Shown here in pieces: positions 4,566 through 57,827 of a DNA stretch of 57,836 nucleotides; positions within the stretch are counted from its first letter, which is position 1, and each line of letters opens with the position of its first letter. Source of the DNA: Myxococcota bacterium (GTDB lineage: Bacteria; Myxococcota_C; UBA6777); assembly GCA_023150835.1 (NCBI GenBank), contig JAKLKB010000027.1, forward strand, positions 1 to 57,836, read 5' to 3'. The position numbers and the translations under genes were made by a program. Under the pieces are notes generated by a model, which was given only the letters and a program-made list of their open reading frames with translations, made no database searches and was not told where the DNA came from.

Positions 4566-4600
4566 CAACCTCCTGCACAGATCGCCTGTAGCGTTGCACG

Positions 4601-5095
4601 TTATTTCTTAAATTTCTGCAACAGGCGGTCGGTCACCCAAAAACCACCCACCACGTTGATCATCGCACACAGCACAGCAATAAAACCAAGGATCTTTGCA
4701 ACAGAGGGAGCCGTAAAACGCGCACAATACAACGCTCCCACGATAGTAATCCCTGAGATCGCGTTGGAACCCGACATCAAAGGCGTGTGCAACGTGGGCG
4801 GAACCTTGGTGATCAACTCAAATCCCACAAAAATCGCCAGCAAAAAGATATACAACCCCACCAAAAACGGAGGCAAAGAAGCCGATTGGCTCGCTGTTTC
4901 AGAGGCTTTGCTTTGTTTCGTTGCCGACGCTGTTTGCGCAGCAGACGCTGTTTGCACGGTCGCTTGGCGCTTTGAGGGCGCAGCAGGCTCACCCGCCGAA
5001 GACACCCCATGCACAAACAATCCACCCATCAAAAAGCACATACCAAAAAACATCCATCGCAAGCGCGACAACGAAGAAAACGCTGACATCAACAT
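4601..5095 (-). CDS. pntAB: NAD(P) transhydrogenase subunit alpha part 2 (membrane)
   Basis: A 164-aa product carrying the alpha-chain membrane helices. The C-terminal half matches the family (FLLAIFVGFELITKVPPTLHTPLMSGSNAI). It is preceded by an unusual N-terminal hydrophobic segment ending near residue 35 and an Ala/Ser/Gln-rich linker, so the N-terminus may be a signal peptide or an extra helix; the family is normally about 100 aa. ATG at 5095 lies 2 nt after the pntAA stop, and its AAGGAG is contained in the last codons of pntAA, implying translational coupling. It works with PntAA (NAD site) and PntB. Confidence 0.93.
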   Translation of the reverse strand: MLMSAFSSLSRLRWMFFGMCFLMGGLFVHGVSSAGEPAAPSKRQATVQTASAAQTASATKQSKASETASQSASLPPFLVGLYIFLLAIFVGFELITKVPPTLHTPLMSGSNAISGITIVGALYCARFTAPSVAKILGFIAVLCAMINVVGGFWVTDRLLQKFKK

Positions 5096-5097
5096 CC

Positions 5098-7347: not shown

Positions 7348-8328
7348 ATGATCGAGCATCTTTCGCTAGAGATGTTTCAAGACGATATCGAGGACTTTGA
7401 ACGCAGCGTGATCGCAATGCCCGATATATCGACGGTTTGCACAGCGAGCGACTGGCAGATCGCAGCATACGAACGATTGAGCGATCACAGAGAATCGCGC
7501 ATCATCCGAAGAGATACCACGTGGATGCTATTTTGCATCGGCCCCGTTAACCGCTACCGTCGCGTACTTCAACCTTTTGAGATGAGTTGGGCTTTTGGCA
7601 CTCCTCTCGTGGGCGAAGATATCGAAGCCTGTGTCCAATTGAGCTTAGAAGTGTTGTTGCAAGATCGTCCATCATGGGAGATGGCGGTGTTTAGCGGACT
7701 TCCCGAAGACGGAGCATTGGCGATTGAACTGCTCCGAACGTTGGGGGCGCACTTTCACAGCGAAAGCATCGCAGGCAGTCACTGTGATCAAGCGTTTTTG
7801 CATGACGGCCTTGATGCGTGGCTCGAACGGCGCAGCCGAAACTTTCGCGTGAGCTTGCGCAAAAGTGAACGCGCCGCGCAAGAACAAGAGATCGCGTTTG
7901 AATGGATCGATGGAGTGTGCGATGGCGCGGCCTTGTTGGAGCGCATCTTTCAGATCGAACGCCGCTCATGGAAAGGCGAATCAGGCAAAAGCATTTACCG
8001 AAACCTCCCCTACAGACGATTTTACGAAACGCTTTGCACACGCATGGGAAAACGCGGCTTGTTGCGAGCGATCTTTGCGCAGCACGAAGGAAAAGATATC
8101 GCGTATGCCTTCGGCGGTATCGTAGGTTCGGTCTATCGGGGGTTTCAGATCAGCTACAACGATCAATTTGCTGCGCTCGGTTTGGGAAATCTCTTGCAAT
8201 GGTGGCAGATGCAAAAACTCGCCGAAGAAGGGATCACGCTCTACGATCTCGGGATGGAGATGGCCTACAAAAAACGCTGGGCTGATCGGCTCCAACGCTT
8301 TCAGACGCTGCTCTTTGTCAGAGGTTAA
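7348..8328 (+). CDS. GNAT-fold acyltransferase-like protein (BioF2/CelD-type)
   Basis: A 326-aa protein with the arrangement of the BioF2-like/CelD acetyltransferase group. A divergent N-terminal half is followed from about 160 by a GNAT-like domain with RRSRNFRVSLRKSERAA, ERRSWKGESGKSI, AYAFGGIVGSVYRGFQISYN and LYDLGMEMAYKKRWA. Such proteins transfer an acyl or aminoacyl group, often in envelope polysaccharide modification; the substrate here is unknown. ATG at 7348 follows GAGGAAAGC. The TAA stop (8326-8328) is also the left target duplication of repeat A2. Confidence 0.8.
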   Translation: MIEHLSLEMFQDDIEDFERSVIAMPDISTVCTASDWQIAAYERLSDHRESRIIRRDTTWMLFCIGPVNRYRRVLQPFEMSWAFGTPLVGEDIEACVQLSLEVLLQDRPSWEMAVFSGLPEDGALAIELLRTLGAHFHSESIAGSHCDQAFLHDGLDAWLERRSRNFRVSLRKSERAAQEQEIAFEWIDGVCDGAALLERIFQIERRSWKGESGKSIYRNLPYRRFYETLCTRMGKRGLLRAIFAQHEGKDIAYAFGGIVGSVYRGFQISYNDQFAALGLGNLLQWWQMQKLAEEGITLYDLGMEMAYKKRWADRLQRFQTLLFVRG

Positions 8329-8440
8329 TACGATATCCGCAAGATGCGTACACAAAGAACAGTACGTAGACGCCCTATGGTTGGGCAGCTACAGGGGGCT
8401 GCCCCTACGTTTTGCGATCACACAATGGACGAATCTCGCC
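8329..8440 (-). mobile_element. Family A MITE-like element, copy A2
   Basis: Starts TACGATATCCG, has the hairpin GGGCAGCTACAGGGGGCTGC, and ends AATCTCGCC. It is flanked by TAA at 8326-8328 and at 8441-8443. The left TAA is the stop codon of the GNAT gene. Confidence 0.88.
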
Positions 8441-8469
8441 TAACCACCGCGCCTATCCGATCAAGGCGA

Positions 8470-15513: not shown

Positions 15514-16851
15514 ATGCACCACCACCCCTCCGATCTTTGCGTGCAAACTGCACACAAGCACGCGACCGTTCCAAACAACCCAAAACAAAAGCACGCCTCT
15601 TTTTTTCGGATGCCTTGTTTCGTTTTCTTCGTAGCTGCCTTGTGCGGTGCGCTTGTGCATCTCGCTTGCGATCCCAAACCAAGCACCGAAAACGCCGTCG
15701 AATCCGCCCAAGAACTCACCCCCGAATCCGCCCAAGAATCCACCCAAGACACCACCCCCGACGCAAGCCCCGAAGCCACCGCCGAACCTGCACCCGAACC
15801 TGCACCCGAACCCCTCGCAGAACCCACGCCCGAACCCGCAGCAGAATCTGCCCCCGAGATACCCAACGGCCCTCATACCCTCGCTGTATTCGATAAAATC
15901 ACCATCCACAGCAACGGCGATGTCAACGTCCGCCAAGCCCTCTCCCCCTTTCGCTTTTTCCACTCTTCCTTTCAACGTGTCGTCCTGCGTGTACAACTAG
16001 AGACGACTTGTTTTCCCTTTGAGAAGTGGCAACAAGATCCGCCTCCGCCCGGGCACAACTGGCCCCCCAAGTGCGATGCCTTTGACCGCAACTTCGACTT
16101 TCACCTCGACCCCGCGCCCGATGCCCCCAAAGGCACCCCCGCCATCGAACTGGTGCGTGCGATCACTCCTTTTGGTGGCCCCATGCAGTTCCAAGCCGAT
16201 ATCACCGATATCGCCAACGGACTCAAAGGCGGCGCACACACCATGCGCGTCAATATCCAAACCTATTCCGACGGCCAAGGAAAAGTCTCTGGCTCCAATG
16301 GACAATGGACCGTCTCTGCATTTCTTGATGTCGTGCCTTCTGACACACCCAGTCGTATTCTTTCTGTTCAACCGCTGTTTAACCACAACCACACCGACAA
16401 GATGACCCGCCAATCCGCCACCTTCACGATCCCCCAAGGCGCAAAAACAGCTTATCTCCTGTACCGTGTGACGGGACACGGCGGTGGCACCGCAGATGCG
16501 GCCTGCATCGGCCACGCCGACGAATTCTGCCAACGCACCCACAAACTTTATTTCAACGATCAACTCGCCCACGAATGGATCCCTTGGCGAAAAGATTGCG
16601 CCAAACTCTGCACCCTCCAAAAACGCGGAACGATGGAGTATTGCGCCGAAAATCCATGCGGCTCCATCCAAAGCGTTCGCGCCCCCCGCGCCAACTGGTG
16701 TCCCGGTAGTGTCACCCCTCCCTACGTCCACTTGCTCCCTGCGGATATCGTTCAAAAAGCAGGCTCGCATCAGTTCGATTACGAGATCCTTGGCATCGCT
16801 CAAGGCGGCTCGTGGAAAGTCTCCGCAACCCTCGTTGTGATCGGACCTTAA
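15514..16851 (+). CDS. PNGase F-like lipoprotein
   Basis: A 445-aa protein. A long polar N-region precedes a hydrophobic stretch ending HLAC, a candidate lipidation site near residue 52. A Glu/Pro/Ala-rich linker (about 56-115) leads to two beta-sandwich domains resembling peptide-N-glycosidase F. The C-terminal one has YRVTGHGGGTADAACIGHADEFC-like spacing, then EWIPWRKDC and RANWCPGS, all typical of that family. Family members cleave N-glycans from asparagine or have lost activity; catalytic residues cannot be assigned with certainty here. ATG at 15514 follows AAAGGA; an internal ATG at 15610 gives a shorter leader but lacks a binding site. Probably co-transcribed with the preceding lipoprotein gene. 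Confidence 0.75.
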   Translation: MHHHPSDLCVQTAHKHATVPNNPKQKHASFFRMPCFVFFVAALCGALVHLACDPKPSTENAVESAQELTPESAQESTQDTTPDASPEATAEPAPEPAPEPLAEPTPEPAAESAPEIPNGPHTLAVFDKITIHSNGDVNVRQALSPFRFFHSSFQRVVLRVQLETTCFPFEKWQQDPPPPGHNWPPKCDAFDRNFDFHLDPAPDAPKGTPAIELVRAITPFGGPMQFQADITDIANGLKGGAHTMRVNIQTYSDGQGKVSGSNGQWTVSAFLDVVPSDTPSRILSVQPLFNHNHTDKMTRQSATFTIPQGAKTAYLLYRVTGHGGGTADAACIGHADEFCQRTHKLYFNDQLAHEWIPWRKDCAKLCTLQKRGTMEYCAENPCGSIQSVRAPRANWCPGSVTPPYVHLLPADIVQKAGSHQFDYEILGIAQGGSWKVSATLVVIGP

Positions 16852-16871
16852 ACTCCGTTCTGATTTGATCA

Positions 16872-16984
16872 TACGATATCCGAGTGATGTGTGATCGTAA
16901 GATAGTACGTAGACGCCCTATTCTTGGGCAGCCACAGGGGGCTGCCCCTACATTTTTACGATCACACAACGGGCGGATCTCGTG
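16872..16984 (-). mobile_element. Family A MITE-like element, copy A3
   Basis: TACGATATCCG left end, hairpin GGGCAGCC/GGCTGCCC, GGGCGGATCTCGTG right end, flanked by TCA at 16869-16871 and 16985-16987. This TCA pair shows that the duplicated trinucleotide is TNA rather than always TAA. Confidence 0.9.
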
Positions 16985-17000
16985 TCAGTCCTATCTACAC

Positions 17001-17114
17001 AGGACTTGCGCAGTTGAAAAGGGAAACCCTGAGATATCAGAACGTTGTAGGGGCGGTTCGCGAACCGCCCACGCCCGAACATCTGCCTTTTTCGTATCGA
17101 ACTGCGTAAGTCCT
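17001..17114. mobile_element. Family C MITE-like element
   Basis: 15-bp inverted ends AGGACTTGCGCAGTT (17001-17015) and AACTGCGTAAGTCCT (17100-17114), one mismatch. The centre holds a perfect 20-bp palindrome GGGCGGTTCGCGAACCGCCC (17051-17070). ATCTACA flanks both sides (16993-16999 and 17115-17121); with TCCT the match extends to 11 bp. It sits 16 bp from element A3, upstream of the HEAT gene. No transposase is encoded. Confidence 0.85.
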
Positions 17115-17270
17115 ATCTACAATTCACACCTAATTTTTTTGAACATCGCGCAGACAGCCCCCGTCTATCCCGCCGACCTATCAAACGCTGTGGTCGTCGA
17201 CTTTTGCCCAAAACAACGGCAAATCGGCGACCATCGCGTATCAAATCCCCCCATTCGATCGGTCGCGGCG

Positions 17271-19559: not shown

Positions 19560-20315
19560 ATGTCTCTTATGCAAAACTGGAACAACAGCGTTTTCCAAAA
19601 AAGACGTGTTTGCGGCCCTTTGAGCGGCTGCGTGGTGGGTTTGGAAACCTCTGTTCGCTCCGCCAACACGGGGTCAAGGGGGCGACGCTCCCTTGTGGGG
19701 TCTGGGGCAAAGCCCCACCATGCCTACAAACAGCATACGTCGCATCCAAACAACGCATCTTCTCCGTACCACCGTCTTTTTCGTGCGTGTTGGTGGGTGT
19801 GTGGCCTTTGGTTTTTTCTTTGGATGACTCCCCAACAGGCTGTTGCAAACCCTTTTGCAAGCAACCTTCCCTCCAAAGTGGGCGTGGGGGTGGGCTATGA
19901 TGTCGATCTCAATGGCTTTACGATCCGTTTTGGCGACTTAAAAGGTGTGCGTTTTGACATCAATCTGGGCTTTGGTTTGAACCTTCAAACAGGCAATAAT
20001 TCCTCAACCACCGTCGATATCACCCCCGGATTTCGAGTCTTGTTTCCGATCGGCTCTGTTCGCGTTGTCCAACTGCATGCTGTGGTGGGAACCTACCTGC
20101 TGATGAAGCCCACCGATGCAGCCTTTCGGATGGATCTATCGCTCTTTGGTGGCTTGATGCCTGAGATCTTTTTGTTCGAGCAGTTGAGTATCGAGATCAT
20201 GGTTGGATTTGCCTTCAACATCAACAATATCGGCGGGGATGTCACGCTCAACCTCGGAACCATCGGCAAAGGGATCTCTTTCCTGAGCGGCGCGGCTTTT
20301 CACTGGTACTTCTAA
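19560..20315 (+). CDS. Outer-membrane-like beta-rich protein with repeat in its 5' coding end
   Basis: A 251-aa frame. ATG at 19560 has a strong AGGAGA site. Codons 6 to about 59 are the family B repeat B2 read in frame, giving a basic, low-information peptide. A normal signal sequence then appears (WWVCGLWFFLWM, cleavage near AVANPF). The mature part (about residues 99-251) has alternating hydrophobic strands (GVGVGYDVDLNGFTIRF, RFDINLGFGLNLQTG, LSIEIMVGFAFNINNIGG) and ends in Phe, consistent with a beta-barrel. The native start might instead lie just before the signal sequence, but no ATG is there. Function unknown. Confidence 0.65.
   Translation: MSLMQNWNNSVFQKRRVCGPLSGCVVGLETSVRSANTGSRGRRSLVGSGAKPHHAYKQHTSHPNNASSPYHRLFRACWWVCGLWFFLWMTPQQAVANPFASNLPSKVGVGVGYDVDLNGFTIRFGDLKGVRFDINLGFGLNLQTGNNSSTTVDITPGFRVLFPIGSVRVVQLHAVVGTYLLMKPTDAAFRMDLSLFGGLMPEIFLFEQLSIEIMVGFAFNINNIGGDVTLNLGTIGKGISFLSGAAFHWYF
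19576..19735 (-). repeat. Family B hairpin repeat, copy B2
   Basis: Reverse orientation, with the core AACACGGGGTCAAGGGGGCG and hairpin GGGGTCTGGGGCAAAGCCCC. It lies inside the 5' coding end of the envelope protein gene and keeps that frame open. Confidence 0.85.
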
Positions 20316-20863: not shown

Positions 20864-20870
20864 CGCATTA

Positions 20871-20984
20871 GACGAAATCCGCCCGTTGCGTGATCGTAAT
20901 GAGGTAGGGGCAGCCCCCTGTGGCTGCCCAATAATCGGACATCTGCGTACTCTCGTTTGCTGTGTACATCACTCGGATATCGTA
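20871..20984 (+). mobile_element. Family A MITE-like element, copy A5
   Basis: Left end GACGAAATCCGCCCG (one base off consensus), hairpin GGGGCAGCCCCCTGTGGCTG, right end CGGATATCGTA. It is followed after 3 nt (TGA) by copy A6, so the two are head-to-tail; flanking trinucleotides are TTA and TGA and do not match. Confidence 0.8.
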
Positions 20985-20987
20985 TGA

Positions 20988-22822: not shown

Positions 22823-24127
22823 ATGATCCCGACGCGGACGTACCTTCTCTACGCAACAGGCGGCTTTTCGATGCACGCCTCCAACTTCTTGCTCTCGACA
22901 TGGCTGATCAAGTTTTATACACCCGGCCCCGACAAACACCTGATCGATCCGATCTTTTTTGGCTACATTATGCTCTTTGGCCGAATCATCGACGCGATCA
23001 CCGATCCCTTGGTCGGCGCGTGGTCTGATCATCACAAAGGCCCGCGTGGTCGGCGTGTTCCGTTTCTGTTGTGGGGCGCTCCGATCCTTGCGTTGAGCCT
23101 ATGGTGGAGCTTTACCCCCCCTGTGGCCGGACAATCCGTCTGGAACGGGGTTTATCTTGCCGCGATGATGGCGATCTTTTTCACGTTTTACACGATCGTT
23201 GTCACACCCTACCTTGCGATCTTGCCCGAACTATCGAATGATGCGAAAGTTCGCGTCAATCTGACGACTTACCAAGCAGGCTTTGTCTTGCTCGCCACCA
23301 TCTACGTCGCCGCCCTCTCTGGCCCGATGATCCAAAGACTCGGTTATGGAACGACTATGGCGATATCGGGTGTGCTGATCTGGCTGACTTCGTGGCTACC
23401 GATCCTTGTGGCTCCCCAAAAAGACACCGTGGAGGCGGCACACACCGAAAAAGCGTCGCTGCCCGTGATCTGGACGCGTTCGTGGGGAACGCTGCGCAGC
23501 AAGGCATTTCGCCACATTCTGCTGTCCACCTCGGCCTTTTGGTTTGCGCTCAACCTCTTGATGGCCTCGATCGCGTTGTGGGTCGTCAACGTCTTGAAGG
23601 GCAAAGAGGCCGATGTTGCGATGATTATGATGCCCTTTATCGTGGCCAACCTGCTTGGCTTTGTGGTCTTCAATCGCATGGCCCATCGCTTCGGAAAATA
23701 CAAGGTCTTCGTGATCATGTTTGTGATGATGGCCACCATCGCGCCCTTTTGGTATCTCGTGCAACGACAGCAAGGCGATTGGCCGTACCTGCATGCCATG
23801 CTGCTGTGCTTTGGCTTGGGCTTTCCGCTCGCCGCCTTCCAAGTCCTGCCCTTTGCCCTTCTTGCTGACGTGATCGATCAAGACGAACGCGAATATGGCG
23901 TACGCCGCGAAGCGATCTTTTTTGGGATGCAGGCCATCTTCCAAAAAACCAGCATCGGCCTGTCCATCGTGGTGATGCAGTATATGCGCACAAGCCTTGG
24001 CGAAGTGACGGCCTTGCGTTTGCTTGGGCCGCTCGCGGGCTTGTTTTGCTTGATCGGTTTGATTACATGGATCGGCTACCCATTGCGCGAAGAACCCCCA
24101 CAAAAAATCTCCGCCCCTGCGCATTAA
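22823..24127 (+). CDS. GPH-type MFS symporter
   Basis: A 434-aa protein with about twelve hydrophobic helices. The glycoside-pentoside-hexuronide (MFS_2) hallmark is present: AITDPLVGAWSDHHKGPRGRRVPF between helices 2 and 3. Family members import sugars or related solutes with a cation. ATG at 22823 has GAGG 6 nt upstream; an upstream in-frame reading of 25 residues is not membrane-like. The TAA stop (24125-24127) is also the left target duplication of A7. The next gene encodes an oxidoreductase of sugar-dehydrogenase type, so the two might share a substrate. Confidence 0.9.
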   Translation: MIPTRTYLLYATGGFSMHASNFLLSTWLIKFYTPGPDKHLIDPIFFGYIMLFGRIIDAITDPLVGAWSDHHKGPRGRRVPFLLWGAPILALSLWWSFTPPVAGQSVWNGVYLAAMMAIFFTFYTIVVTPYLAILPELSNDAKVRVNLTTYQAGFVLLATIYVAALSGPMIQRLGYGTTMAISGVLIWLTSWLPILVAPQKDTVEAAHTEKASLPVIWTRSWGTLRSKAFRHILLSTSAFWFALNLLMASIALWVVNVLKGKEADVAMIMMPFIVANLLGFVVFNRMAHRFGKYKVFVIMFVMMATIAPFWYLVQRQQGDWPYLHAMLLCFGLGFPLAAFQVLPFALLADVIDQDEREYGVRREAIFFGMQAIFQKTSIGLSIVVMQYMRTSLGEVTALRLLGPLAGLFCLIGLITWIGYPLREEPPQKISAPAH

Positions 24128-24240
24128 TACGAGAGCCGCTCGTTGTGTGATCGTAAAGACGTAGGGACAGCCCCCCGTGGCTGCCCAATAATCGGGCGTC
24201 TGGGCACTATCCTTTGTGTACACATCACTCGGAGATCGTA
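24128..24240 (+). mobile_element. Family A MITE-like element, copy A7
   Basis: TACGAGAGCCGCTCG left end, hairpin GGGACAGCCCCCCGTGGCTG, GGAGATCGTA right end. TAA flanks both sides (24125-24127, 24241-24243). The left one is the stop codon of the symporter gene. Confidence 0.92.
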
Positions 24241-24287
24241 TAATCCCTTTTCTCAATAGCTTTCCTCTCTGATTGCAAGGAGACACT

Positions 24288-30427: not shown

Positions 30428-30533
30428 CCCCCTCGATCCACTTTTCTCGCGAACCACCTTCCGATCTATCGCGTCATGGGGCCGCGCCACCCAGAACAGC
30501 GAATCCTTTTCTTGTCGCGATTGCGCAGTTGAC

Positions 30534-30674
30534 AAAAAAACCCGTACTCGCTGCATTTCAAGCGAAAGAGTCGTCTGGTTGAAAAACCATGATCTCTTCG
30601 CCGATACGGGGTCAAGGGGCGACAGTCTATGGCGGGTTTTGGGGTTCCAACCCCACAAAAACCAACCCAACAAG
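30534..30674 (-). repeat. Family B hairpin repeat, copy B3
   Basis: Reverse orientation between the kinase stop and the RNA ligase start. It has the TTCGCCGATACGGGGTCAAG core, GGGGTTCCAACCCC hairpin and ends CCAACAAG 31 nt before the ligase ATG. Confidence 0.88.
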
Positions 30675-30705
30675 TACTTCACTCTCACACCAAGGAGATC
30701 CAAAG

Positions 30706-32088
30706 ATGATCCTCGCCATGCAAGTCAAAGAAGTCCACAACCACGCCAACGCCGACACCTTGCGCGTCTATGTCTTTGGCGCGCCCAACCACGCGGATAC
30801 ACAGATCGTCGCAAACAACGAGAATCTGTACAACGTGGGCGATGTAGTCGCGGTGGCGTTGGTCGGAGCGGTGCTTGCGGACGGAACCAAGCTCCGCAAA
30901 GCCCGCTTACGCGGCGTGGACTCTTTTGGCATGGCGATGGGGCCGACCGATCAACCTGTCGGGGCGGATCTTTCCGCACAATACAGAGCGAACACTGCTC
31001 CGCCCCCCACAGCACCGAGTGAAGCTGCCGCTGCGTTGCCCACCGATATCGATCTAATCAAGTGGCCGAGTATCGAGCATCTTCATCACCTGATCGCCTC
31101 GTTTCAAAAAGAAAGCGAAGTCTTTGGGGACGCTTATGTGATGCCCAAGATCCCTTACCGCGCCAAAGTCAAACTGGACGGAACCAACGCCGCTGTACAG
31201 ATGCGCGCAGATGGCCGATGTATCGCCCAATCCCGCTCTCGCCTGATCCACCCCCAAGAAGATAACCTCGGATTTGCCGCATGGCTCGAACTACACAAAG
31301 ACTACTTCCACGATCTCAACCAACGGATGCACCAACAAGCCCCTGTGTCGGGCCCGATCTTGTTATTTGGTGAATGGTGCGGCCAAGGCATCCAAAAACG
31401 TACCGCGATCTCCAAGATCCCCAAACGTGTCTTTGCGATCTTTGCGATCCTATGGGGCGATCCAAGCACAGGGATGGCTCACATCGAGATCGAACCCGAA
31501 CGCTTACGGGCTTTGATCCCCGCCCACGAAGATATCCATATCTTGCCGTGGCATCACGAGACCATCGAGATCGATTTCGCCTCCCAAGCCTCGCTCGAAC
31601 AAGCAGCAGAAACTCTCAACGCCCTCGTCGCATCGGTCGAAGCGTGCGATCCTTGGGTCGCGGAAGTCTTTGGCACCGAAGGACTCGGTGAAGGCGTTGT
31701 GATGTACCCGCTCCTCGCAGAAGCAGATCCGATGTGGCGTACCCGCTGGTCAAGTCTGTTGTTCAAAGCCAAAGGTGAAAAACACCAATCCATCCGTCAA
31801 AAAAGCTCTGTACAGCTTACTCCTGAGCACGTCTCCTCCGTTCAAGCCTTTGTCGATCTCGTCTTGACGCCCGCTCGCCTCGAACAAGCACTCCAAGAAG
31901 CTTGTGCTGGCCTCGCCGTTCCCGAAAAGATCGGCGATTTTTTGCGATGGATCGGTCAAGACGTCAAAAAAGAAAACACCCTCGAAGCCGAAGCCAACGG
32001 GCTCGATTGGAAAGATATCGCCAAACCGCTCTCTCAAACGGCCTTGCGCTGGTTCCAAACACAGCGACCCACATCTCCTCTGCCCTGA
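30706..32088 (+). CDS. RNA ligase, DRB0094/Rnl5-like, with N-terminal OB module
   Basis: A 460-aa ligase. Residues 1-110 form an OB-type module whose start (HNHANADTLRVYVFG ... VGDVVAVALVGAVL) resembles tRNA-binding EMAP-II/YtpR domains, as in Deinococcus DraRnl. The nucleotidyltransferase domain holds motif I KLDG with Lys156 as the likely AMP-accepting residue, LLFGEWCG (motif III), LGEGVVMYP (motif IV) and LFKAKG (motif V). A helical C-terminal domain follows. The family seals nicks with a 3'-OH RNA end using ATP. ATG at 30706 has AAGGAG upstream. No Pnkp, Hen1 or RtcB partner is adjacent. Its last codons are duplicated 72 bp downstream. Confidence 0.88.
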   Translation: MILAMQVKEVHNHANADTLRVYVFGAPNHADTQIVANNENLYNVGDVVAVALVGAVLADGTKLRKARLRGVDSFGMAMGPTDQPVGADLSAQYRANTAPPPTAPSEAAAALPTDIDLIKWPSIEHLHHLIASFQKESEVFGDAYVMPKIPYRAKVKLDGTNAAVQMRADGRCIAQSRSRLIHPQEDNLGFAAWLELHKDYFHDLNQRMHQQAPVSGPILLFGEWCGQGIQKRTAISKIPKRVFAIFAILWGDPSTGMAHIEIEPERLRALIPAHEDIHILPWHHETIEIDFASQASLEQAAETLNALVASVEACDPWVAEVFGTEGLGEGVVMYPLLAEADPMWRTRWSSLLFKAKGEKHQSIRQKSSVQLTPEHVSSVQAFVDLVLTPARLEQALQEACAGLAVPEKIGDFLRWIGQDVKKENTLEAEANGLDWKDIAKPLSQTALRWFQTQRPTSPLP

Positions 32089-41619: not shown

Positions 41620-41685
41620 GATCCTCTTTACTCTCTTTTTTGATCCTCTTTACTCTCTTTTTTGATCCTCTTTACTCTCTTTTTT
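41620..41685. repeat. 22-bp tandem repeat, 3 copies
   Basis: Three contiguous 22-bp units GATCCTCTTTACTCTC plus T-run begin 9 nt after the Sel1 gene stop and end in T-rich sequence that merges with repeat B4. Confidence 0.95.
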
Positions 41686-41806
41686 TGTAGGGCGTTGCCC
41701 CACGCCCAACAAGGGACTGTCGCCCCTTGACCCCGTATCGGCGGGATGTGCAGACGTTTTCCACACCAACGCCTGCTCCGCTTGAAACATCGCGAACACG
41801 GGGTTC
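41681..41806 (+). repeat. Family B hairpin repeat, copy B4
   Basis: Contains GGGCGTTGCCC, CCCCTTGACCCCGTATCGGC core and GCGAACACGGGG tail. It lies 45 nt before the ATG of the next gene, after the 22-bp array. Confidence 0.88.
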
Positions 41807-48800: not shown

Positions 48801-49299
48801 AGATATCGCCAACAACTTTATCTCTGGTCTGATCCTCACCTTCGGCCAATCCGTCAAAGTCGGCGATGTCATCGAAGTCAACGGAATCCTCGGAACTGTG
48901 CGTGAGATATCCGCACGTTCCACCACCGTCGAATCTCCCGACGGGCGCATCGTCTTGTTGCCCAACGCCACCCTCCTCACATCAAGCGTCATCAACTGGA
49001 GCATGGGCCCTTCCCACATCATCGCCACTCTCCAGATCAGCGTCGCCACCGAAAATACACCCCGCACCATCCAAGACATTCTCTTGCGCATCGCGCAACA
49101 ACACCCTCAAATCCTCCAAAACCCCGCACCCTACGTCCAACTCGAAGACTTTAACGAAGAAAACATCGACTTCACCCTCCAAGTCGCCGTCCAAGATCCC
49201 CTCCAGCGCTTCGTTTTGCTTAGCGACCTACGCTTCGCCATCAACGAAACCTTCGCAAAGCTCGGCATCAAGCTCGCCCGCTCCTCCGAAAGCGAATAA
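45880..49299 (+). CDS. Large MscS-type mechanosensitive channel (MscK-like)
   Basis: A 1139-aa inner-membrane protein. Signal peptide to about residue 43 (TTAQAQNP), then a periplasmic alpha-helical coiled-coil region (about 55-330) rich in Glu, Arg and Lys. A helix near 445, a Pro/Ala/Thr linker with three 24-residue repeats (APQAKDPTDVVQPESSETIA), about ten helices, then the MscS core: AVFAGVIGIGIGFGTQDIANNFISGLIL pore helix, DVIEVNGILGTVREISARST and VLLPNATLL. It should gate on membrane tension and protect against osmotic shock. ATG at 45880 has GGAG 7 nt upstream. Its TAA stop (49297-49299) is the left target duplication of A8. Confidence 0.92.
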   Translation: MTLPDGHLTHPTRNSLLSHVAIRLVLGGFLLFSLWTSLTTAQAQNPLDRMLGRSGSQDSNEVSEYQETIQLKQRLEELEKDIKEIKQNNPLQRERFEKEATQYQAIQSRFRELPKQQRWRREDKLLKLRAKIAEMGEKNETILVKLQSLLLSREQSATNLKELLERYLKFREDAAKWLQERYPKKTRRRTLHRDLKRLQRLVKEEKKRLEQAQTRLNQSNQDIENTQQAFDLARKKAEDDARLALDYEKTQADIAAKSEREAAEREAAEAKKKAEEENNPRRLTRAERLRASREASERARREVTERKEQEKLRIQQEDQRMLFQLASQLNRITLEFHRRNLQYLQLRRHEHTLNHEFHQTQHRFYLYTVEQMQSLKRSLAAKEKGGLLYHLPLDFQAKLLKEVSERTLALVDLNKNPLLSQFQTLSNDAQKTWDKQDLTRRIFLALYTLAFLLLFFLLRYPLKRATRALSTPQTATTATSSSSKTATTPASLDKLAAPPSSPDTSSTSDSADIFEAPQAKDPTDVVQPESSETIASNLQAPQAKDPTDVVQPESSETIASNLQAPQAKDPTDVVQPESSETLAPILPPPSSIGLTEAKLTEEAAKGLRTGFALILRATHRVLAFGLLFAALLTVGWVFSFPQNMQWVSGVVGTMLFGLRLLWVSADLLFAKAPTDRLLANLNDQDARAFRRLFKGMALFAFLNYPILLLAPLAQYPITFVHILESLFVAGILFGVLYLFLKKEPILALIPTDTAFGARTALIVRRVYPVFYVLAIGIFGIFVAGYRSLAIFLTIRTLLSVVLLLSAYSIQLLIWTLAMAIVSRFQGNKGETKRTQNNLLRLLRLAVTLLTALITLSLLLETWDIAGGYKAVLNLLDTPFFQIEKTQISVVSIFKLLISVFGSFWLSAWLKQRLHHLIYPLLRFSLPNRHAADTVVHYSTIILGVLVGLQWMGVGIGVLAVFAGVIGIGIGFGTQDIANNFISGLILTFGQSVKVGDVIEVNGILGTVREISARSTTVESPDGRIVLLPNATLLTSSVINWSMGPSHIIATLQISVATENTPRTIQDILLRIAQQHPQILQNPAPYVQLEDFNEENIDFTLQVAVQDPLQRFVLLSDLRFAINETFAKLGIKLARSSESE
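47425..47630. repeat. 72-bp coding tandem repeat, ~3 copies
   Basis: Copies begin at 47425, 47497 and 47569, nearly identical, encoding a 24-residue acidic/Pro-rich unit in the linker of the MscS-type channel. The third copy fades at its end. Confidence 0.95.
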
Positions 49300-49409
49300 T
49301 ACGAAATCCGCCCGTTGTGTGATCGTAAAGAGGTAGGGGCAAACAGGTGTGGCCCAATAATAGGGCGTCTACGCACTGTCCTTTGTGTACGCATCACTCG
49401 GATATCGAA
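49300..49409 (+). mobile_element. Family A MITE-like element, copy A8
   Basis: TACGAAATCCGCCCGTTGTG left end, a centre with a partly lost hairpin (AGGGGCAAACAGGTGTGGCCC), GGATATCGAA right end. TAA flanks both sides (49297-49299, 49410-49412); the left is the channel gene's stop codon. Confidence 0.9.
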
Positions 49410-49412
49410 TAA

Positions 49413-49618
49413 CTCCCCCCATCCTTTCGACACTTGATCGTCGATGTTCGCCCACACACAAAATTCCCCGTCTCTTCGGCACTTGATCATTGCTTCTTGC
49501 CCCGCCACACAGCCGCGCAATGGTGACAAAACGATCCGCTTGGATGTTTTGATGTGTTTGTGCTACGTTGACCACGGCTTCCACTCTTTCCTCCTCCCCA
49601 AACACAGGAGCCTGACCG
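49413..49618. other. Remaining gap after element A8
   Basis: It contains two related segments with CACTTGATC (near 49430 and 49487) but no gene. The ribosome binding site CAGGAG of the next gene lies at its end. Confidence 0.4.
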
Positions 49619-50593: not shown

Positions 50594-52888
50594 ATGCGTC
50601 TTCGAAAATCATGGCCTTTCTTGGTGTACTTCTCCTTCTTTGTGCTGCTTGTTGCCGCCTCGATCGCTTGTGGCCCACCTGTCGGCACGGGGACCGGCAA
50701 TGATGGAAATTCCCAATCGGAGGGCGGTTCCAACACAGAAGGCATCGCCTCCGAAACCAACCCCGATGCCTCCTCCGAACCCACCAATCCCGACGGCACC
50801 GCAGAATCCACCAATCCCGACGGCATCGCAGAATCCACCAATCCCGACGGCACCGCAGAGTCCACCAATCCCGACGGCACCGCAGAGTCCACCAATCCCG
50901 ACGGCACCGCAGAATCCACCAATCCCGACGGCACCGCAGAATCCACCAATCCCGACGGCACCGCAGAATCCACCCCAGAATCTACAGGCGATGCGATCCC
51001 CGAAGGCAAAACCCGCTGCGAACAACAAAACGGATATTGCGAACTCTTCCCCAATGATTGTAAGCCCAATTACCAAAACGACGGCGACCCGCTCGATTGT
51101 CCCGGTGGCCGTAGCGCGATCTGTTGCCAACCCACCCCCACCCCTCCCCAATGCACCACCGACAAAGACTGCCCCACCACCTGCAAAGGAAGCGGCGTCT
51201 GCGAACAATACGAATACAAGTGCATCACCGGCCTGTGCGTCTCTGGCCCTCCCCTCACACAACCCAACGCTTCCTGCGATGCCACCACCGGCCAATGTAT
51301 GCCTCTCACCGCTGGCTGCAAAACCAATTGTGATTGCGCCCAAGGACTCCTCTGTACCAACCGCCAATGCCTCGCTGGCACCAAAGCCGCCTATTGTTGC
51401 TCCAAACCGGGCTGCCCCGCCAACGAATCCTGCCAAAATCCCGATGGAACCAGCGGAACTTGCCCCGCTCCTCAAACAGATTGTGAGAAAAAAGGCGGCC
51501 AATGCGTACGACAAGGTATGATCTGCCCCCCCAACTACACCATGGACGGCAGCGTCTCCTGCGGAGGTTCGCTCTCGCTCAATTGCTGCCTCCCGACCAC
51601 CAATCCTTGCGCAACCATCAAGTGCCAAGGCCCCTCTTGTGCCACCGATAGCAGCGGAGCATGCAGCACCACCCTTTACACCTGCGATCCCACCCTCGGA
51701 CAATGCGTCCCCACCACCAAAACCACCAAACCCTACTGCTCCCTCAGCGGAACGATCTGCACACAATTCACCCCCGCTTGTAGCAACAACCAATGCGCTC
51801 TCAAAACCTCCACCGTCACCCTTTCCTGCTCGCAAAGCGGCACAAGCTGCCTCCAGATCACCCCCTCCTGCGCCAGTGACCAATGCGCCAAAACGTCCCA
51901 AACCATCGCCAACAGCACCTGCGATGCCGCAACAGGAAAATGCAGCCCCACGCAAGTTGCCTGCAAAACCCACTGCGACTGCACACAAGGGATGATGTGC
52001 TCAAACGGCCAATGCTTCTCAGGGACCGCCATCACCTACTGTTGCACCAAACCGGGATGCCTCGCTGGCGCGACTTGCACAAATCCCGATGGCACCAAAG
52101 GCACCTGCCCCACCACCAAGACCGATTGCGAGATCAAAGGCGGACAATGCGTCGTCCAAGGCACCGCCTGTCCCTCGGGAACGTACCTCAACACCACCGT
52201 CTCTTGCGGTAGTATCCGTTCCCTCAACTGTTGCCTCCCCAACCCCTGCGCAACCATCCGATGCCAAGGCCCCACTTGCGCAACCACCAGCACCGGCACA
52301 TGCAACGAAACCACTTACACCTGCGATCCCGCTCTCGGCCAATGCGTCCCCACCACCAAAACGGTCGCAACGGCCTGCTCCATGAGCGGAACTTCCTGCA
52401 CTCAATTCACTCCCGTGTGCAGCAACAACCAATGCACCGCCAAAACATCCACCGTCTCTCCCACCTGCCGACAAAGCGGTACGAGCTGCATCCAATCCGC
52501 CCCCACTTGCAGCAACAATCTATGTTCCGCAGCTTCCCGAACCATCGCCAACAGCACCTGCAACACCACCACAGGACAATGCAGCGCCATCTCTCCTACC
52601 TGCAAAACGCACTGCGACTGCACACAAGGAATGATGTGTTCAAACGGACAATGCTTGATCGGTACCGTCTCCACCTACTGCTGCAACAAACCCGGATGCC
52701 CCGCTGGCTCTTCTTGTACAAACCCCGACGGCACAAAAGGCACTTGCCCCTCAAGCCAAACCGATTGCGTCCAAAAGGGCGGACAATGCGTCAGCCAAGG
52801 CTCCATTTGTCCAAGAGGCTACCAACAAAACAGCGCCCTCTCCTGTGGCGGTTCTCTCTCCCTCTACTGCTGCGTCCCCATCATCTAA
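50594..52888 (+). CDS. Cysteine-rich lipoprotein with TNPDG linker
   Basis: A 764-aa lipoprotein. Signal segment ends at the lipobox SIAC (VAASIACGPP). Then comes a linker with seven TNPDGTAES units (27-bp DNA repeats), followed by at least two long, mutually similar cysteine-rich modules of about 230 residues (blocks such as CKTHCDCTQGMMCSNGQC and CNKPGCPAGSSCTNPDGTKGTC occur three times in all). Disulfide-rich surface or envelope anchored protein; function unknown. ATG at 50594 has AAGGAG about 8 nt upstream. It resembles in style the lipoprotein at 12987 but the repeat patterns differ. Confidence 0.85.
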   Translation: MRLRKSWPFLVYFSFFVLLVAASIACGPPVGTGTGNDGNSQSEGGSNTEGIASETNPDASSEPTNPDGTAESTNPDGIAESTNPDGTAESTNPDGTAESTNPDGTAESTNPDGTAESTNPDGTAESTPESTGDAIPEGKTRCEQQNGYCELFPNDCKPNYQNDGDPLDCPGGRSAICCQPTPTPPQCTTDKDCPTTCKGSGVCEQYEYKCITGLCVSGPPLTQPNASCDATTGQCMPLTAGCKTNCDCAQGLLCTNRQCLAGTKAAYCCSKPGCPANESCQNPDGTSGTCPAPQTDCEKKGGQCVRQGMICPPNYTMDGSVSCGGSLSLNCCLPTTNPCATIKCQGPSCATDSSGACSTTLYTCDPTLGQCVPTTKTTKPYCSLSGTICTQFTPACSNNQCALKTSTVTLSCSQSGTSCLQITPSCASDQCAKTSQTIANSTCDAATGKCSPTQVACKTHCDCTQGMMCSNGQCFSGTAITYCCTKPGCLAGATCTNPDGTKGTCPTTKTDCEIKGGQCVVQGTACPSGTYLNTTVSCGSIRSLNCCLPNPCATIRCQGPTCATTSTGTCNETTYTCDPALGQCVPTTKTVATACSMSGTSCTQFTPVCSNNQCTAKTSTVSPTCRQSGTSCIQSAPTCSNNLCSAASRTIANSTCNTTTGQCSAISPTCKTHCDCTQGMMCSNGQCLIGTVSTYCCNKPGCPAGSSCTNPDGTKGTCPSSQTDCVQKGGQCVSQGSICPRGYQQNSALSCGGSLSLYCCVPII
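50788..50975. repeat. 27-bp coding tandem repeat, 7 copies
   Basis: Seven near-identical units encode TNPDGTAES (one with Ile for Thr) in the linker just after the lipid anchor of the cysteine-rich lipoprotein. Confidence 0.95.
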
Positions 52889-53053: not shown

Positions 53054-53082
53054 TTGACGCCACGCTCTGGCAAAGTTATATC
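53054..53082 (+). promoter_or_regulatory. Probable sigma-70 promoter for the mcl1-mcd-mch cluster
   Basis: TTGACG (53054-53059), 17-bp spacer, TATATC (53077-53082), about 110 nt before the mcl1 ATG. It matches the TTGACG/17-bp pattern seen at 10422 and on the minus strand at 7246. Confidence 0.6.
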
Positions 53083-53191
53083 TTCTTGCCTGAATGATGA
53101 TTCATCCACGATGCTCTTTTGCCCTCTGATAGCATCGAAAGCGTCGATGCGGTCGAGAGAGTGGACGTTTACCCGCGAAGGAGAAAGAACG

Positions 53192-54448
53192 ATGAGCCGA
53201 TTTGATGTACTGCGCAAAGAGATCGCGAACATTCAAAGCAAACACCGCGCACGTCCTGAGATGATGCGCGGACTCAAAGTGCCGTATTATCGGCGAGGTG
53301 AGATGGCGATCCCGGGCTTTCGGATGGCAAAAGGCGGCGATATCGAAACCGATGGGCGCATCCAAAGCCTTCGTGTCATGAACAAAGCTGCCGAACTTCC
53401 TATCGACTTTTTCTTTTATGATCTAGAAGATGCCGCTCCTGATAATCCAGACTTTAAGGTCTATGCTCGCCGCTTTATTGTGGAAGCCCTCACCACCAAC
53501 GACTACGGCAAGCGCGTGGTGGGCTTTCGCCCCAACAACATCCGCACCTCTTACTTTGAGCAAGACTTGATTGAAGTCCTCAGCGGCGCGGGCCATCGCC
53601 TTGACGCATTGGTAATCCCCAAAACCGAGTACGCCGAAGAAGTCCAAGATATCGTCCAGATCGTTCGCGATATCCAGCGCATCGCGGGCCATCCCAACGT
53701 CCCCGCTCTGGAGATATTGATCGAATCTCCCCGCGCCCTGCTCGAAGCCGAAAAGATCGCTGCCATCGACGGTGTCGCCTCTTTGATCTTTGGATCGTGG
53801 GACTTTGCCCGAACCATCAGCGGCAAAGTCACCCCCGAAGGATGGCTCGAAGAACAAGCCTTTGCTCGTCAAATGTTGCCCATCGTTGCCGCAGCTTACG
53901 GCAAAGACGCTGTAGATGCCGTCACCGCAACGCTTCCTCTTCGCCCCAAAAAACCCGCAGCGATGGACGAAGCCACCTACAACATCGCGCTTTCTCTGCC
54001 CGCCTCATCTCTTGATCCCGCCAAATACAGCGAAGAATTCATCGCAGCCATGCGAAAAAAAGAACGCGCACTCGAACTTGTTCGACGCGATGCCGAAAAC
54101 GCCCGCGCCATCGGCTATGCTGCCAAATGGATCCTGCACCCTGATCAGATCGAACCTGTCCACAGCGCTTGGTCGCCTGATCACAAGACGGCCAAAACAG
54201 CACTTGATCTTGTAGCGCATTATACCCGCGCTGCTCGCAGCGGTTCGGGGGCCGAAGTCGACGAAGATCGCCTCGCGGACAAGGCCGTGATCGGAACCGA
54301 GTGGTGGCAAGTCCTCGGCGGACTTCGTGCGGGCACACTGACCGACGCCGATGTCCAAGCCACCGGCTTCGATCTCGAAACACTCCAACGCACCGTCGTC
54401 ACCCACGATCAACACCAAACTCTCCAAAAAGAAGGCTTCAGTAGCTGA
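53192..54448 (+). CDS. mcl1: CitE-like lyase, probable malyl-CoA/beta-methylmalyl-CoA lyase
   Basis: A 418-aa HpcH/HpaI-family protein. Key blocks: PIDFFFYDLEDAAPDNPDF, VVGFRPNNIRT (substrate Arg), ALEILIESPRALLEAEKI (metal Glu) and SLIFGSWDFART (metal Asp region). It is longer than the usual 310-340 aa, with an extended C-terminus. From context with the next two genes it would split beta-methylmalyl-CoA into glyoxylate and propionyl-CoA in the ethylmalonyl-CoA pathway; a plain malyl- or citramalyl-CoA lyase is the alternative. ATG at 53192 has AAGGAG; the frame extends upstream without a binding site. Repeat B5 begins 1 nt after its stop. Confidence 0.75.
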   Translation: MSRFDVLRKEIANIQSKHRARPEMMRGLKVPYYRRGEMAIPGFRMAKGGDIETDGRIQSLRVMNKAAELPIDFFFYDLEDAAPDNPDFKVYARRFIVEALTTNDYGKRVVGFRPNNIRTSYFEQDLIEVLSGAGHRLDALVIPKTEYAEEVQDIVQIVRDIQRIAGHPNVPALEILIESPRALLEAEKIAAIDGVASLIFGSWDFARTISGKVTPEGWLEEQAFARQMLPIVAAAYGKDAVDAVTATLPLRPKKPAAMDEATYNIALSLPASSLDPAKYSEEFIAAMRKKERALELVRRDAENARAIGYAAKWILHPDQIEPVHSAWSPDHKTAKTALDLVAHYTRAARSGSGAEVDEDRLADKAVIGTEWWQVLGGLRAGTLTDADVQATGFDLETLQRTVVTHDQHQTLQKEGFSS

Positions 54449-54449
54449 G

Positions 54450-54582
54450 TTCGTTTGGGTTTGTGGGGCTTTGCCCTACCCCGCCATAGAGCTTTGCCCC
54501 CTTGACCCCGTATTGGCGAAACGATCACTGTTTTTCAAAGAGACGACTCTGTCGCTTGAACCTCTACAAACACGGGAGGTTC
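54450..54582 (+). repeat. Family B hairpin repeat, copy B5
   Basis: Directly after the mcl1 stop and 21 nt before the mcd start. Contains TGTGGGGCTTTGCCCTA and the CCCCTTGACCCCGTATTGGC core. As it lies within the apparent operon, it could act as an attenuator or RNA stabiliser. Confidence 0.85.
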
Positions 54583-54603
54583 TGAACCACCAAGGAGTTC
54601 ATC

Positions 54604-56232
54604 GTGAGCCTTCACCTCGCCGCCCTTGCTCTCGACAACGCCGCACAGATCCTCGATCACCTTGGCCGCTGTTTTGCCCATCGTGTCGCCCATGAGGGCC
54701 GATTCTCTCGCCCTTTGCTTGATGCCCAACAACCCACCGCGTTCCTTTATGCCCATCTGCTCGCCGATCTCGAAGCTGCACAGGCTGGACTACGATACGC
54801 CACACAACAAGGCCCCTACGAACAAGAACTCGCACAAACGTATGCTGCCCTGATGTTGCGCCGTTTTCTCCAACGCCTCGTCCTGCGCGAACACGAATTT
54901 GGCTGGCAAGGCGATATCTACGCCTCCCTCCAAACCCACCGACATTGGATCGAGGCCACACTCGCAACGCCTCGTCTTGTCGCCCTCGGGCAAACCTTGC
55001 TCGATCGCGATGCCGAATGGAGCGGGGCTTATGGCGTCAGCGAAGACCACGAAGATGTACGCCGTGTCTTTGCTCGATTTGCAGACGAAAAAGTCGCTCC
55101 GCTTGCCGAGTCGATCCACCGACACGATGGCATCCTCCCCGAGCCTCTCCTCCAAGAATACGCAGCAATGGGCGTCTTTGGCATCTCGATCCCCGACCGC
55201 TACAACGGCAGCTTTGTGGATCACCTCACCATGTGCCTTGCGACCGAAGAACTCAGCCGCGCAAGCCTTGGGGCGGGCGGCAGCGTCATCACGCGACCTG
55301 AGATCTGCGCCAAAGCGCTCCTCAAAGGCGGAAGCGACGAACAAAAACGGCGCTGGCTCCCCGCCATCGCACGCGGCGAAGTCTTGGTCAGCGTCGCAGT
55401 CACCGAACCCAACGCAGGCTCTGACGTCGCCAACGTCCGTGTCTCCGCACGTCCGACCGATGGCGGATATCTGATCAACGGCGAGAAAACGTGGTGTACT
55501 TTTGCAGGCCGCGCCAACGTCTTTATCTTGCTCGCTCGCACGGGCGAAGCCGACGCAGGACACAAAGGTCTCACCCTGTTTTTGGTCGAAAAACCCGCCA
55601 AGATATCCGAGACCGATCACCACCACTTCTCTTCTACACAACGCGACGGAGGCCGATGCGAAGGCCGTGCGATCCCGACCCTCGGCTATCGTGGAATGCA
55701 CTCTTTTAGCGTCTGTTTTGAAGATTATTTTGTCCCCACAACCCATCGCATCGGAGAAGAAGGACAAGGCTTTGCGCTTCAAATGGAAGGCTTTTCGGGA
55801 GGTCGCATCCAGACCGCTGCTCGCGCTGTCGGTGTAATGGAAGCAGCCTTGCGCGAAGCCATCCGCTACGCCCAAGATCGCCAAGTCTTCGGAAAACCCA
55901 TGTCGGACTACGCCTTGACTCGTGTCAAACTCGTCGAGATGGCCGCAACCTTGATGGTGAGCCGACAACTCAGCTACCATGTCGCCTCTCTCATGGACGA
56001 TGGCATGGGCGGTATGGAAGCCTCGCTCGTCAAACTCCTTGCCTGCCGCGAAGCCGAATCCCTCACCCGCGAAGCCATGCAGATCCACGGTGGTATGGGC
56101 TATTCCGAAGAGTATCCTGTCAGTCGCTATTGGCTCGACGCCCGCGTCCTCAGCATCTTCGAAGGTGCCGAAGAAGTCCTCGCCCTGTACGTCGTCGCTC
56201 GACAAGCTCTCTCACGCTACCTTTCCCCATAA
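54604..56232 (+). CDS. mcd: Acyl-CoA dehydrogenase, probable methylsuccinyl-CoA dehydrogenase
   Basis: A 542-aa flavoprotein. Residues 1-135 are a helical N-terminal extension, as found in methylsuccinyl-CoA dehydrogenases of about 550 aa. The acyl-CoA dehydrogenase core follows: SVAVTEPNAGSDVANVRV, GEKTWCTFAGRANVF, QTAARAVGVMEAALREA and MQIHGGMGYSEEYPVSRYWLDARV, with Glu in SIFEGAEEV near the usual base position. It would oxidise (2S)-methylsuccinyl-CoA to mesaconyl-C1-CoA. Start is GTG at 54604 with AAGGAG upstream. Sits between the citE-like and MaoC genes. Confidence 0.8.
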   Translation: MSLHLAALALDNAAQILDHLGRCFAHRVAHEGRFSRPLLDAQQPTAFLYAHLLADLEAAQAGLRYATQQGPYEQELAQTYAALMLRRFLQRLVLREHEFGWQGDIYASLQTHRHWIEATLATPRLVALGQTLLDRDAEWSGAYGVSEDHEDVRRVFARFADEKVAPLAESIHRHDGILPEPLLQEYAAMGVFGISIPDRYNGSFVDHLTMCLATEELSRASLGAGGSVITRPEICAKALLKGGSDEQKRRWLPAIARGEVLVSVAVTEPNAGSDVANVRVSARPTDGGYLINGEKTWCTFAGRANVFILLARTGEADAGHKGLTLFLVEKPAKISETDHHHFSSTQRDGGRCEGRAIPTLGYRGMHSFSVCFEDYFVPTTHRIGEEGQGFALQMEGFSGGRIQTAARAVGVMEAALREAIRYAQDRQVFGKPMSDYALTRVKLVEMAATLMVSRQLSYHVASLMDDGMGGMEASLVKLLACREAESLTREAMQIHGGMGYSEEYPVSRYWLDARVLSIFEGAEEVLALYVVARQALSRYLSP

Positions 56233-56295
56233 TCGGCGGCTTTCAGAAGCCTCGCCCACAAACGTATGATCCAAGAATCCACAAAGGAGCACGCG

Positions 56296-57360
56296 ATGCA
56301 ACAAAAAGGCTGGACGGGTTATTTTTTTGAAGACTTTACGCTGGGGATGAAGCTCAAAGGCCCCACGCCGCGTACCATGACAGACGGCGAGATCGCCCTC
56401 TACATCGCCCTCACGGGAGATCGCACCCCTCATTTTTGTGGACCCCGCCGTCTCATCCACCCGCTGATCATCTTTCATACTGTTTTCGGACAAACGGTGC
56501 GCCAGATCTCTCTCAATGCACGCGCCAATCTTGGCTATGCTGATATGCGCTGGATCGCCCCTGTCTTTGTCGGTGATACGCTCTCTATCTATATGGAAAT
56601 TATCGGACTCAAAGAAAACTCTTCCCGCGATAGCGGCGTTGTCTACGTCAAAAACACCGCCTACAAACAAGACGGAACCGAAGTCATGCGCTTTACGCGC
56701 TGGGTGATGCTCCGCAAACGCACAAGCCACCCCACGCCTTTCCTCGATCAACCGCACCTCCCCTCTCTCCCCAAGATCGTCCCCCCCGAAGAACTCGCTC
56801 TCTTTGAAGAAACTTTACCAACCTTTGAGCAGTGCGGAGGCCGATGGGCTTTTGAGGATTATCAGATCGGTGAGCGGATCTTTCATTATGACGGCATGAC
56901 CATGAACGACTCCGATCAGATGACCTTTACCCGCCTTTTTCAAAACAGCGCCAAAGTTCATTTTGATCGACACAAGATGAACGGAACGCCCCTACTCTAC
57001 GGCGGTTTGGCGATCAGTCACGGATACGCCCAAGCCTTCAACGGTCTTGAGATGCGCCTCGGTCTGCGCGCCCTCAACAGCGGCCATCACACTCACCCCA
57101 CCCACAGCGGCGACACGCTCTACACCTTCACCGATGTCCTCGACAAAGCCTCTCTGCCCGATCCTTCGGTCGGTGCGCTGCGATTGCGGATGATCGTTGT
57201 CAAAAATCTCGACCCCTCTGAGTTCTCCGAATCAGGACAAACCTTTCCGATCACCCAAGAAGATCCCCACAAACCCGGAAAAACACAGTACCCTTCCCAT
57301 ATCGTCCTTGATCTCGATTATTGGGAGATCTTACCCCGTCAAGCTGCTCTCATCGCTTGA
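56296..57360 (+). CDS. mch: Double-MaoC hydratase, probable mesaconyl-C1-CoA hydratase
   Basis: A 354-aa protein with two hot-dog (MaoC-like) halves (about 5-150 and 180-340). The first has GYFFEDFTLGMKL and RWIAPVFVGDTLSIYMEI; the second has WAFEDYQIGERIFHYDGMT, HFD and the GLAISHGYAQAF segment. Length and double domain match mesaconyl-CoA hydratase, which makes beta-methylmalyl-CoA. ATG at 56296 has AAAGGAG 7 nt upstream; starts 63 nt after mcd. Repeat B6 follows the stop. Confidence 0.82.
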   Translation: MQQKGWTGYFFEDFTLGMKLKGPTPRTMTDGEIALYIALTGDRTPHFCGPRRLIHPLIIFHTVFGQTVRQISLNARANLGYADMRWIAPVFVGDTLSIYMEIIGLKENSSRDSGVVYVKNTAYKQDGTEVMRFTRWVMLRKRTSHPTPFLDQPHLPSLPKIVPPEELALFEETLPTFEQCGGRWAFEDYQIGERIFHYDGMTMNDSDQMTFTRLFQNSAKVHFDRHKMNGTPLLYGGLAISHGYAQAFNGLEMRLGLRALNSGHHTHPTHSGDTLYTFTDVLDKASLPDPSVGALRLRMIVVKNLDPSEFSESGQTFPITQEDPHKPGKTQYPSHIVLDLDYWEILPRQAALIA

Positions 57361-57372
57361 TCTTACCGAGGT

Positions 57373-57527
57373 GGCTTGTTGCCAAAAAAACCCCGTGTTC
57401 GCACCATTTCAACCGACAACGTCGTCTGAAAGAAAAACCTGTGTTCTCTTCGCCCAACATGGGGTCAAGGGGGCAAAGCTCCCTTGTGGGGCGTGGGGTG
57501 AAACCCCACAAAACCCTCCAACAAGTG
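57373..57527 (-). repeat. Family B hairpin repeat, copy B6
   Basis: Most complete copy, with inverted ends CTTGTTG (57375-57381) and CAACAAG (57519-57525) and hairpin GTGGGGTGAAACCCCAC. It starts 12 nt after the mch stop. Confidence 0.9.
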
Positions 57528-57533
57528 ACTTTA

Positions 57534-57706: not shown

Positions 57707-57827
57707 TACGAGTTCCGTCCATGAAGTACGTGAAAAAGTAGGGGCAGACAGGTGTGGCTGCCCAATCACAGGGCGTTTACAACAAATCGCATCGACACTT
57801 TTGGATACGCTTTTGACGGATATGATA
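57707..57827 (+). mobile_element. Family A variant, copy A10
   Basis: TACGAGTTCCGTCC left end, GTAGGGGCAGACAGGTGTGG centre, AGGGCGTTTACAAC and a right end CGGATATGATA. Shares the AGGGCGTTTACAAC block with copy A6. No gene is seen from 57361 to the window end. Confidence 0.7.

Follow-up and report, generated by a model that had tools for sequence, protein, structure and literature searches.

The ethylmalonyl-CoA pathway of Rhodobacter, Paracoccus, and Methylobacterium relies on crotonyl-CoA carboxylase/reductase (Ccr), ethylmalonyl-CoA mutase (Ecm), methylsuccinyl-CoA dehydrogenase (Mcd), mesaconyl-CoA hydratase (Mch), and a CitE-like lyase. The pathway is already known from a Myxococcota lineage as well; a near-complete version with ccr was reported for the uncultured Candidatus Houyibacterium, and the available text of that report records that the pathway is present, without describing an operon, the form of the lyase, or a replacement of Ccr (PMC10576062). 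A methylsuccinyl-CoA dehydrogenase, a hydratase, and a CitE-like lyase also occur together in the itaconate/methylsuccinate cluster of pseudomonads, which differs in that it acts on C4-CoA esters, has a CoA transferase, and has no Ecm or Ccr (PMC12290011). Here, we analyzed a stretch of 57,836 nucleotides from a Myxococcota bacterium (the window) whose lyase, mcd, and mch genes (Table 1) very probably encode the end of the ethylmalonyl-CoA pathway. The enzymes are the same as in Rhodobacter, Paracoccus, and Methylobacterium, but in this lineage lyase, mcd, mch, and ecm form one gene run, the lyase is a divergent long form, Ccr is fused to CBS domains, and relatives have a divergent gene of the MDR family in place of ccr. 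The window cluster is new in its lineage, in its gene order, and in its divergent lyase, which curated models do not accept.

Table 1. Features of the window and of related loci (window positions unless a locus name or accession is given)
Feature	Position	Strand	Basis or remark
TTGACG-17 nt-TATATC promoter-like hexamers	53054..53082	+	read directly
Long-form CitE-like C-C lyase, probable beta-methylmalyl-CoA lyase	53192..54448	+	PF03328, 4l9y, catalytic residues
155-bp intergenic gap	54449..54603	+	one copy of dispersed ~125-bp repeat
Predicted methylsuccinyl-CoA dehydrogenase Mcd, 542 aa, GTG start	54604..56232	+	8ciw match, key residues
Predicted mesaconyl-CoA hydratase (beta-methylmalyl-CoA dehydratase) Mch, ~354 aa	56296..57360	+	PF19315, 8hgn
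Dispersed repeats and contig end	57373..57836	+	site where ecm is expected
Repeat family A	1466-1599, 19595-19718, 30524-30670, 41670-41805, 54453-54584, 57373-57529		
Repeat family B	1695-1820, 8325-8445, 16868-17118, 20868-20985, 24124-24251, 49294-49415, 57732-57801		
PntB and PntA transhydrogenase genes	3120-6390	-	
Protein with peptide-N-glycosidase F C-terminal domain	15514-16851		
RNA ligase-domain protein	30589-32088		weak tRNA-binding domain match
764-aa cysteine-rich probable lipoprotein	50594-52888		near-perfect STNPDGTAE repeats, internal duplications; no Pfam match
Ccr with C-terminal CBS domain pair, window genome (C151)	L024:9231-11015		
Ccr with C-terminal CBS domain pair, G008	L080:9067-10839		
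Ccr with C-terminal CBS domain pair, G075	L151		
DUF6986 protein, G008	L080:10989-12446		591 bits
Single MaoC and CitE-like pair, window genome (C82)	L001:935-2361		resembles RipB/RipC, below their cut-offs
MDR gene	L012:6829-7977		counterparts in L013-L017, L019, L155-L163
Leptospira interrogans plasmid mutase	NZ_CP020413.2 6895-8907		

The open reading frames and family tests confirmed the three genes, on the + strand and in the order given by the initial annotation. The start of the cluster had been placed at 53054, which is in fact the first base of the promoter-like hexamers; we assigned the lyase start to the ATG at 53192 given that AAGGAG lies upstream and homologues start at the same place. 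The mch reading frame opens at 56266, but translation probably begins at 56296, given the AAGGAG directly upstream. The proposal that a single promoter serves all three genes found no support, since a consensus promoter scan gave promoter-like sites no commoner than in shuffled sequence and a dispersed repeat lies in the gap between lyase and mcd. The lyase-mcd-mch order recurs in other genomes at a protein identity of 53-71% and is thus beyond chance.

The 418-aa lyase matches PF03328 (77 bits; cut-off, 25), and its best solved relative is the malyl-CoA lyase 4l9y (profile E 4e-34). It shares little identity with characterized malyl-CoA lyases, to which it aligns in pieces only, and is nearer to the Rhodobacter sphaeroides enzyme than to that of Chloroflexus. 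A fold search with its AlphaFold model (weak, pLDDT 65) returned 5ugr and 4l9y as top matches, which lends weak backing to a kinship with malyl-CoA lyases. Catalysis in R. sphaeroides Mcl depends on Glu44, Asp45, Arg76, Glu141, Asp168, and Asp299 (PMC3832036); the equivalents here are E79, D80, R113, E178, D204, and D363, all invariant in an alignment of 13 homologues. In its lid, the protein has the Asp of lyases rather than the Glu of the malyl-CoA thioesterase group. No curated equivalog model accepted the protein, the best being TIGR01588 (67 bits versus a cut-off of 443), and the haloarchaeal malyl-CoA lyase model NF041626 gave 44 bits against 500; because these models failed, we did not file the lyase as Mcl1, although by its residues it should work like Mcl1. 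Thus, it shares with Mcl1 (4l9y, 5ugr, 4l7z) the CitE-like superfamily and all six catalytic residues tested and differs by its low identity and its extra length, which comes from an extended N terminus, a larger insert, and a tail at the C terminus. The initial annotation put this excess at about 100 residues, which is roughly right against the 348 aa of the Chloroflexus lyase and the 339-aa tagged chain of the R. sphaeroides lyase. This divergent long form is kept in 12 other genomes.

The second gene encodes a complete acyl-CoA dehydrogenase core preceded by the long N-terminal extension that the initial annotation had recognized, here about 145 residues. Methylsuccinyl-CoA dehydrogenases were defined by an extension of ~150-170 aa together with a full-length match, and the window protein shows both, aligning with the solved (2S)-methylsuccinyl-CoA dehydrogenase 8ciw over residues 23-538 (E 6e-132) and less closely with the Paracoccus denitrificans enzyme 6es9 (E 1e-87). 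In the latter, Glu535 is catalytic and Arg252, Arg376, and Arg421 bind the carboxylate (PMC5798300). All four have equivalents in the window protein, with E520 in place of Glu535 in the alignment to 6es9; the positions of Ala285, Phe287, and Glu380 differ, as they do in 8ciw. We infer that the protein is a methylsuccinyl-CoA dehydrogenase, with the substrate predicted from this conservation. The product of the third gene, a double-MaoC protein, matches the mesaconyl-CoA hydratase family PF19315 (39.2 bits; cut-off, 26.5) as well as MaoC and aligns over its full length with the solved beta-methylmalyl-CoA dehydratase 8hgn (E 3e-74).

The initial annotation had pointed to ccr, ecm, and a missing aceA as genomic marks of the pathway, and we searched for these families one by one in the window genome (7.56 Mb in 239 contigs, 93% complete). 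One canonical Ccr is present, on contig C151 (592 bits; TIGR01751 cut-off, 378.6), apart from the lyase-mcd-mch cluster and 57% identical to Ruegeria ccrA, a gene near meaA. At the CO2-binding positions N81, F170, E171, and H365 of the Kitasatospora setae enzyme (PMC10966969), it has N65, Y148, E149, and H350. The C-terminal CBS domain pair of this Ccr, found also in G008 and G075, could possibly place the CO2-fixing step under adenylate-sensing control; our literature search found no paper joining crotonyl-CoA carboxylase with a CBS domain, which is no proof of novelty. Isocitrate lyase was found neither in the window genome nor in any of 13 relatives, and 8 of 14 control genomes gave a match. 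A malate synthase-like gene is present and scores far below its equivalog cut-off. The transhydrogenase genes near the other end of the window are a possible source of NADPH for Ccr.

The expectation for ecm was borne out in relatives. The family search did not find the gene in the window assembly; a fused mutase on C132 was rejected as Ecm and is IcmF (1707 bits), and a pair on C235 is methylmalonyl-CoA mutase. In KLAP109 (G001), which is 93% identical in DNA to the window region over 7.7 kb, a mutase gene (L079) lies directly behind mch; its product is 58% identical to the product of Ruegeria meaA, a neighbor of ccrA, and 36% identical to the methylmalonyl-CoA mutase of the window genome. 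Contigs C170 and C9 of the window genome end in repeats that exactly flank the ecm position. Collinearity between C9 and the KLAP109 contig extends to the end of the mutase, where C9 stops in a repeat, and the window contig ends just behind mch in repeats of the same kind. Given this arrangement, ecm most likely sits in the assembly gap behind mch; with repeats on either side of the contig break, we considered a true absence less likely. The window contains two dispersed repeat families of ~115-130 bp, mostly intergenic, which coincide with contig breaks; family A has ~40 genome copies among the matches listed, at 72-89% identity.

Lyase relatives were found in 12 other species genomes, all Myxococcota or Deltaproteobacteria MAGs except one Ignavibacteria MAG and one labelled Klebsiella, probably in error, which fits the "delta-type lineage" suggested earlier. 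Within the window genome's own phylum, four of the five species sampled carry the lyase. As far as contigs extend, G002-G007 and G009 have the lyase linked to mcd, mch, and ecm, and all four genes are joined in G002, G005, G006, G007, and G009. A DUF6986 protein with weak similarity to malyl-CoA lyase replaces the lyase between ccr and mcd in G008, which suggests another beta-methylmalyl-CoA lyase. On a Leptospira interrogans plasmid, a mutase annotated only as methylmalonyl-CoA mutase family is 62% identical to the G001 Ecm and may be an ethylmalonyl-CoA mutase.

Together, the presence of ccr, the lack of isocitrate lyase, and the position of ecm behind mch in G001 support the reading that these are the last steps of the ethylmalonyl-CoA pathway. 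The window genome would then convert acetyl-CoA to cell carbon without isocitrate lyase. The CBS-fused Ccr from C151 and an Ecm encoded directly behind mch, in the gene lost at the assembly gap, would catalyze earlier steps; flux would then pass through Mcd, Mch, and the lyase, which would convert methylsuccinyl-CoA to glyoxylate and propionyl-CoA, as first proposed, and the malate synthase-like gene product would handle the glyoxylate.

We considered whether the cluster might instead degrade exogenous C5 dicarboxylates (methylsuccinate, mesaconate, or itaconate) after CoA activation. Methylsuccinyl-CoA dehydrogenase does occur in the pseudomonad itaconate/methylsuccinate cluster (PMC12290011), and the nearest plasmid-borne Mcd relative, from Variovorax, adjoins a CoA transferase. 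However, neither a CoA transferase nor MmgE/PrpD turned up in a Pfam scan of the ten preceding genes, relatives have ecm behind mch, and the window genome has Ccr. In favor of such a role, the genome also encodes a MaoC and CitE pair resembling RipB/RipC, but this pair lies elsewhere and scores below the equivalog cut-offs, and we regard C5 degradation as improbable.

Even less probable is a route of the 3-hydroxypropionate bi-cycle type, in which the lyase and Mch would run from glyoxylate and propionyl-CoA to mesaconyl-CoA. Among solved structures, Mch does come closest to beta-methylmalyl-CoA dehydratases of the bi-cycle type, but the lyase is closer to that of R. sphaeroides than to that of Chloroflexus, and the bi-cycle is not known to involve Mcd, Ecm, or Ccr, all of them linked in the present case. 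We give equally little credence to a Ccr that makes ethylmalonyl-CoA only for polyketides, with the window genes as an unconnected remnant. The distance between Ccr and the cluster in the window genome would agree with such a split; the cluster genes are nevertheless intact and conserved, and in G008 and G075 a CBS-fused Ccr of the same type is found alongside ecm. The end of the ethylmalonyl-CoA pathway thus stands as our preferred reading of the cluster.

In G002-G007 and G009, the first gene of the operon is not ccr; it belongs to the MDR family and encodes ~385 aa (MDR below), and the TIGR01751 search found no canonical Ccr in these genomes. The same search showed this gene in neither the window genome nor G001, the window genome having canonical Ccr instead. 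Among 377 sampled Myxococcota genomes, MDR occurs in 20, canonical Ccr in 54, and both in none (P = 0.04, kinship ignored). MDR adjoins mcd in eight further genomes, in five of them together with ecm; apart from a single distant form, the long lyase is missing there. MDR scores far below the TIGR01751 equivalog cut-off of 378.6 (79 bits for the L012 protein), and profile comparison aligned MDR with Ccr over 348 columns at 22% identity (E 2e-16). At the CO2-binding positions of Ccr, all 21 full-length MDR sequences have N, F/Y, D (for E), and H, although an alignment at ~20% identity could misplace residues; a quinone reductase control had none of the four. The AlphaFold model of MDR was weak (pLDDT 58; rmsd 16 to its matches) and gives no residue check. 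Ccr homologues are also known from a second setting, next to polyketide synthases, and where MDR lies away from ethylmalonyl-CoA genes, five of eight copies adjoin an ORF with a ketosynthase motif and the size of a polyketide synthase. Given these neighbors and the four positions kept, it is plausible that MDR carboxylates enoyl-CoA. On balance, we lean toward MDR being a second, unrecognized family of carboxylating enoyl-CoA reductases that does the job of Ccr, with a side branch giving alkylmalonyl units to polyketide synthases.

In summary, our analysis places a compact ethylmalonyl-CoA pathway in little-studied uncultured lineages without isocitrate lyase and presents a divergent version of the pathway's lyase. 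If MDR is a carboxylase, it would represent a new CO2-fixing reductase family only ~20% identical to Ccr, of use both in studying how carboxylation works and in synthetic CO2 fixation.
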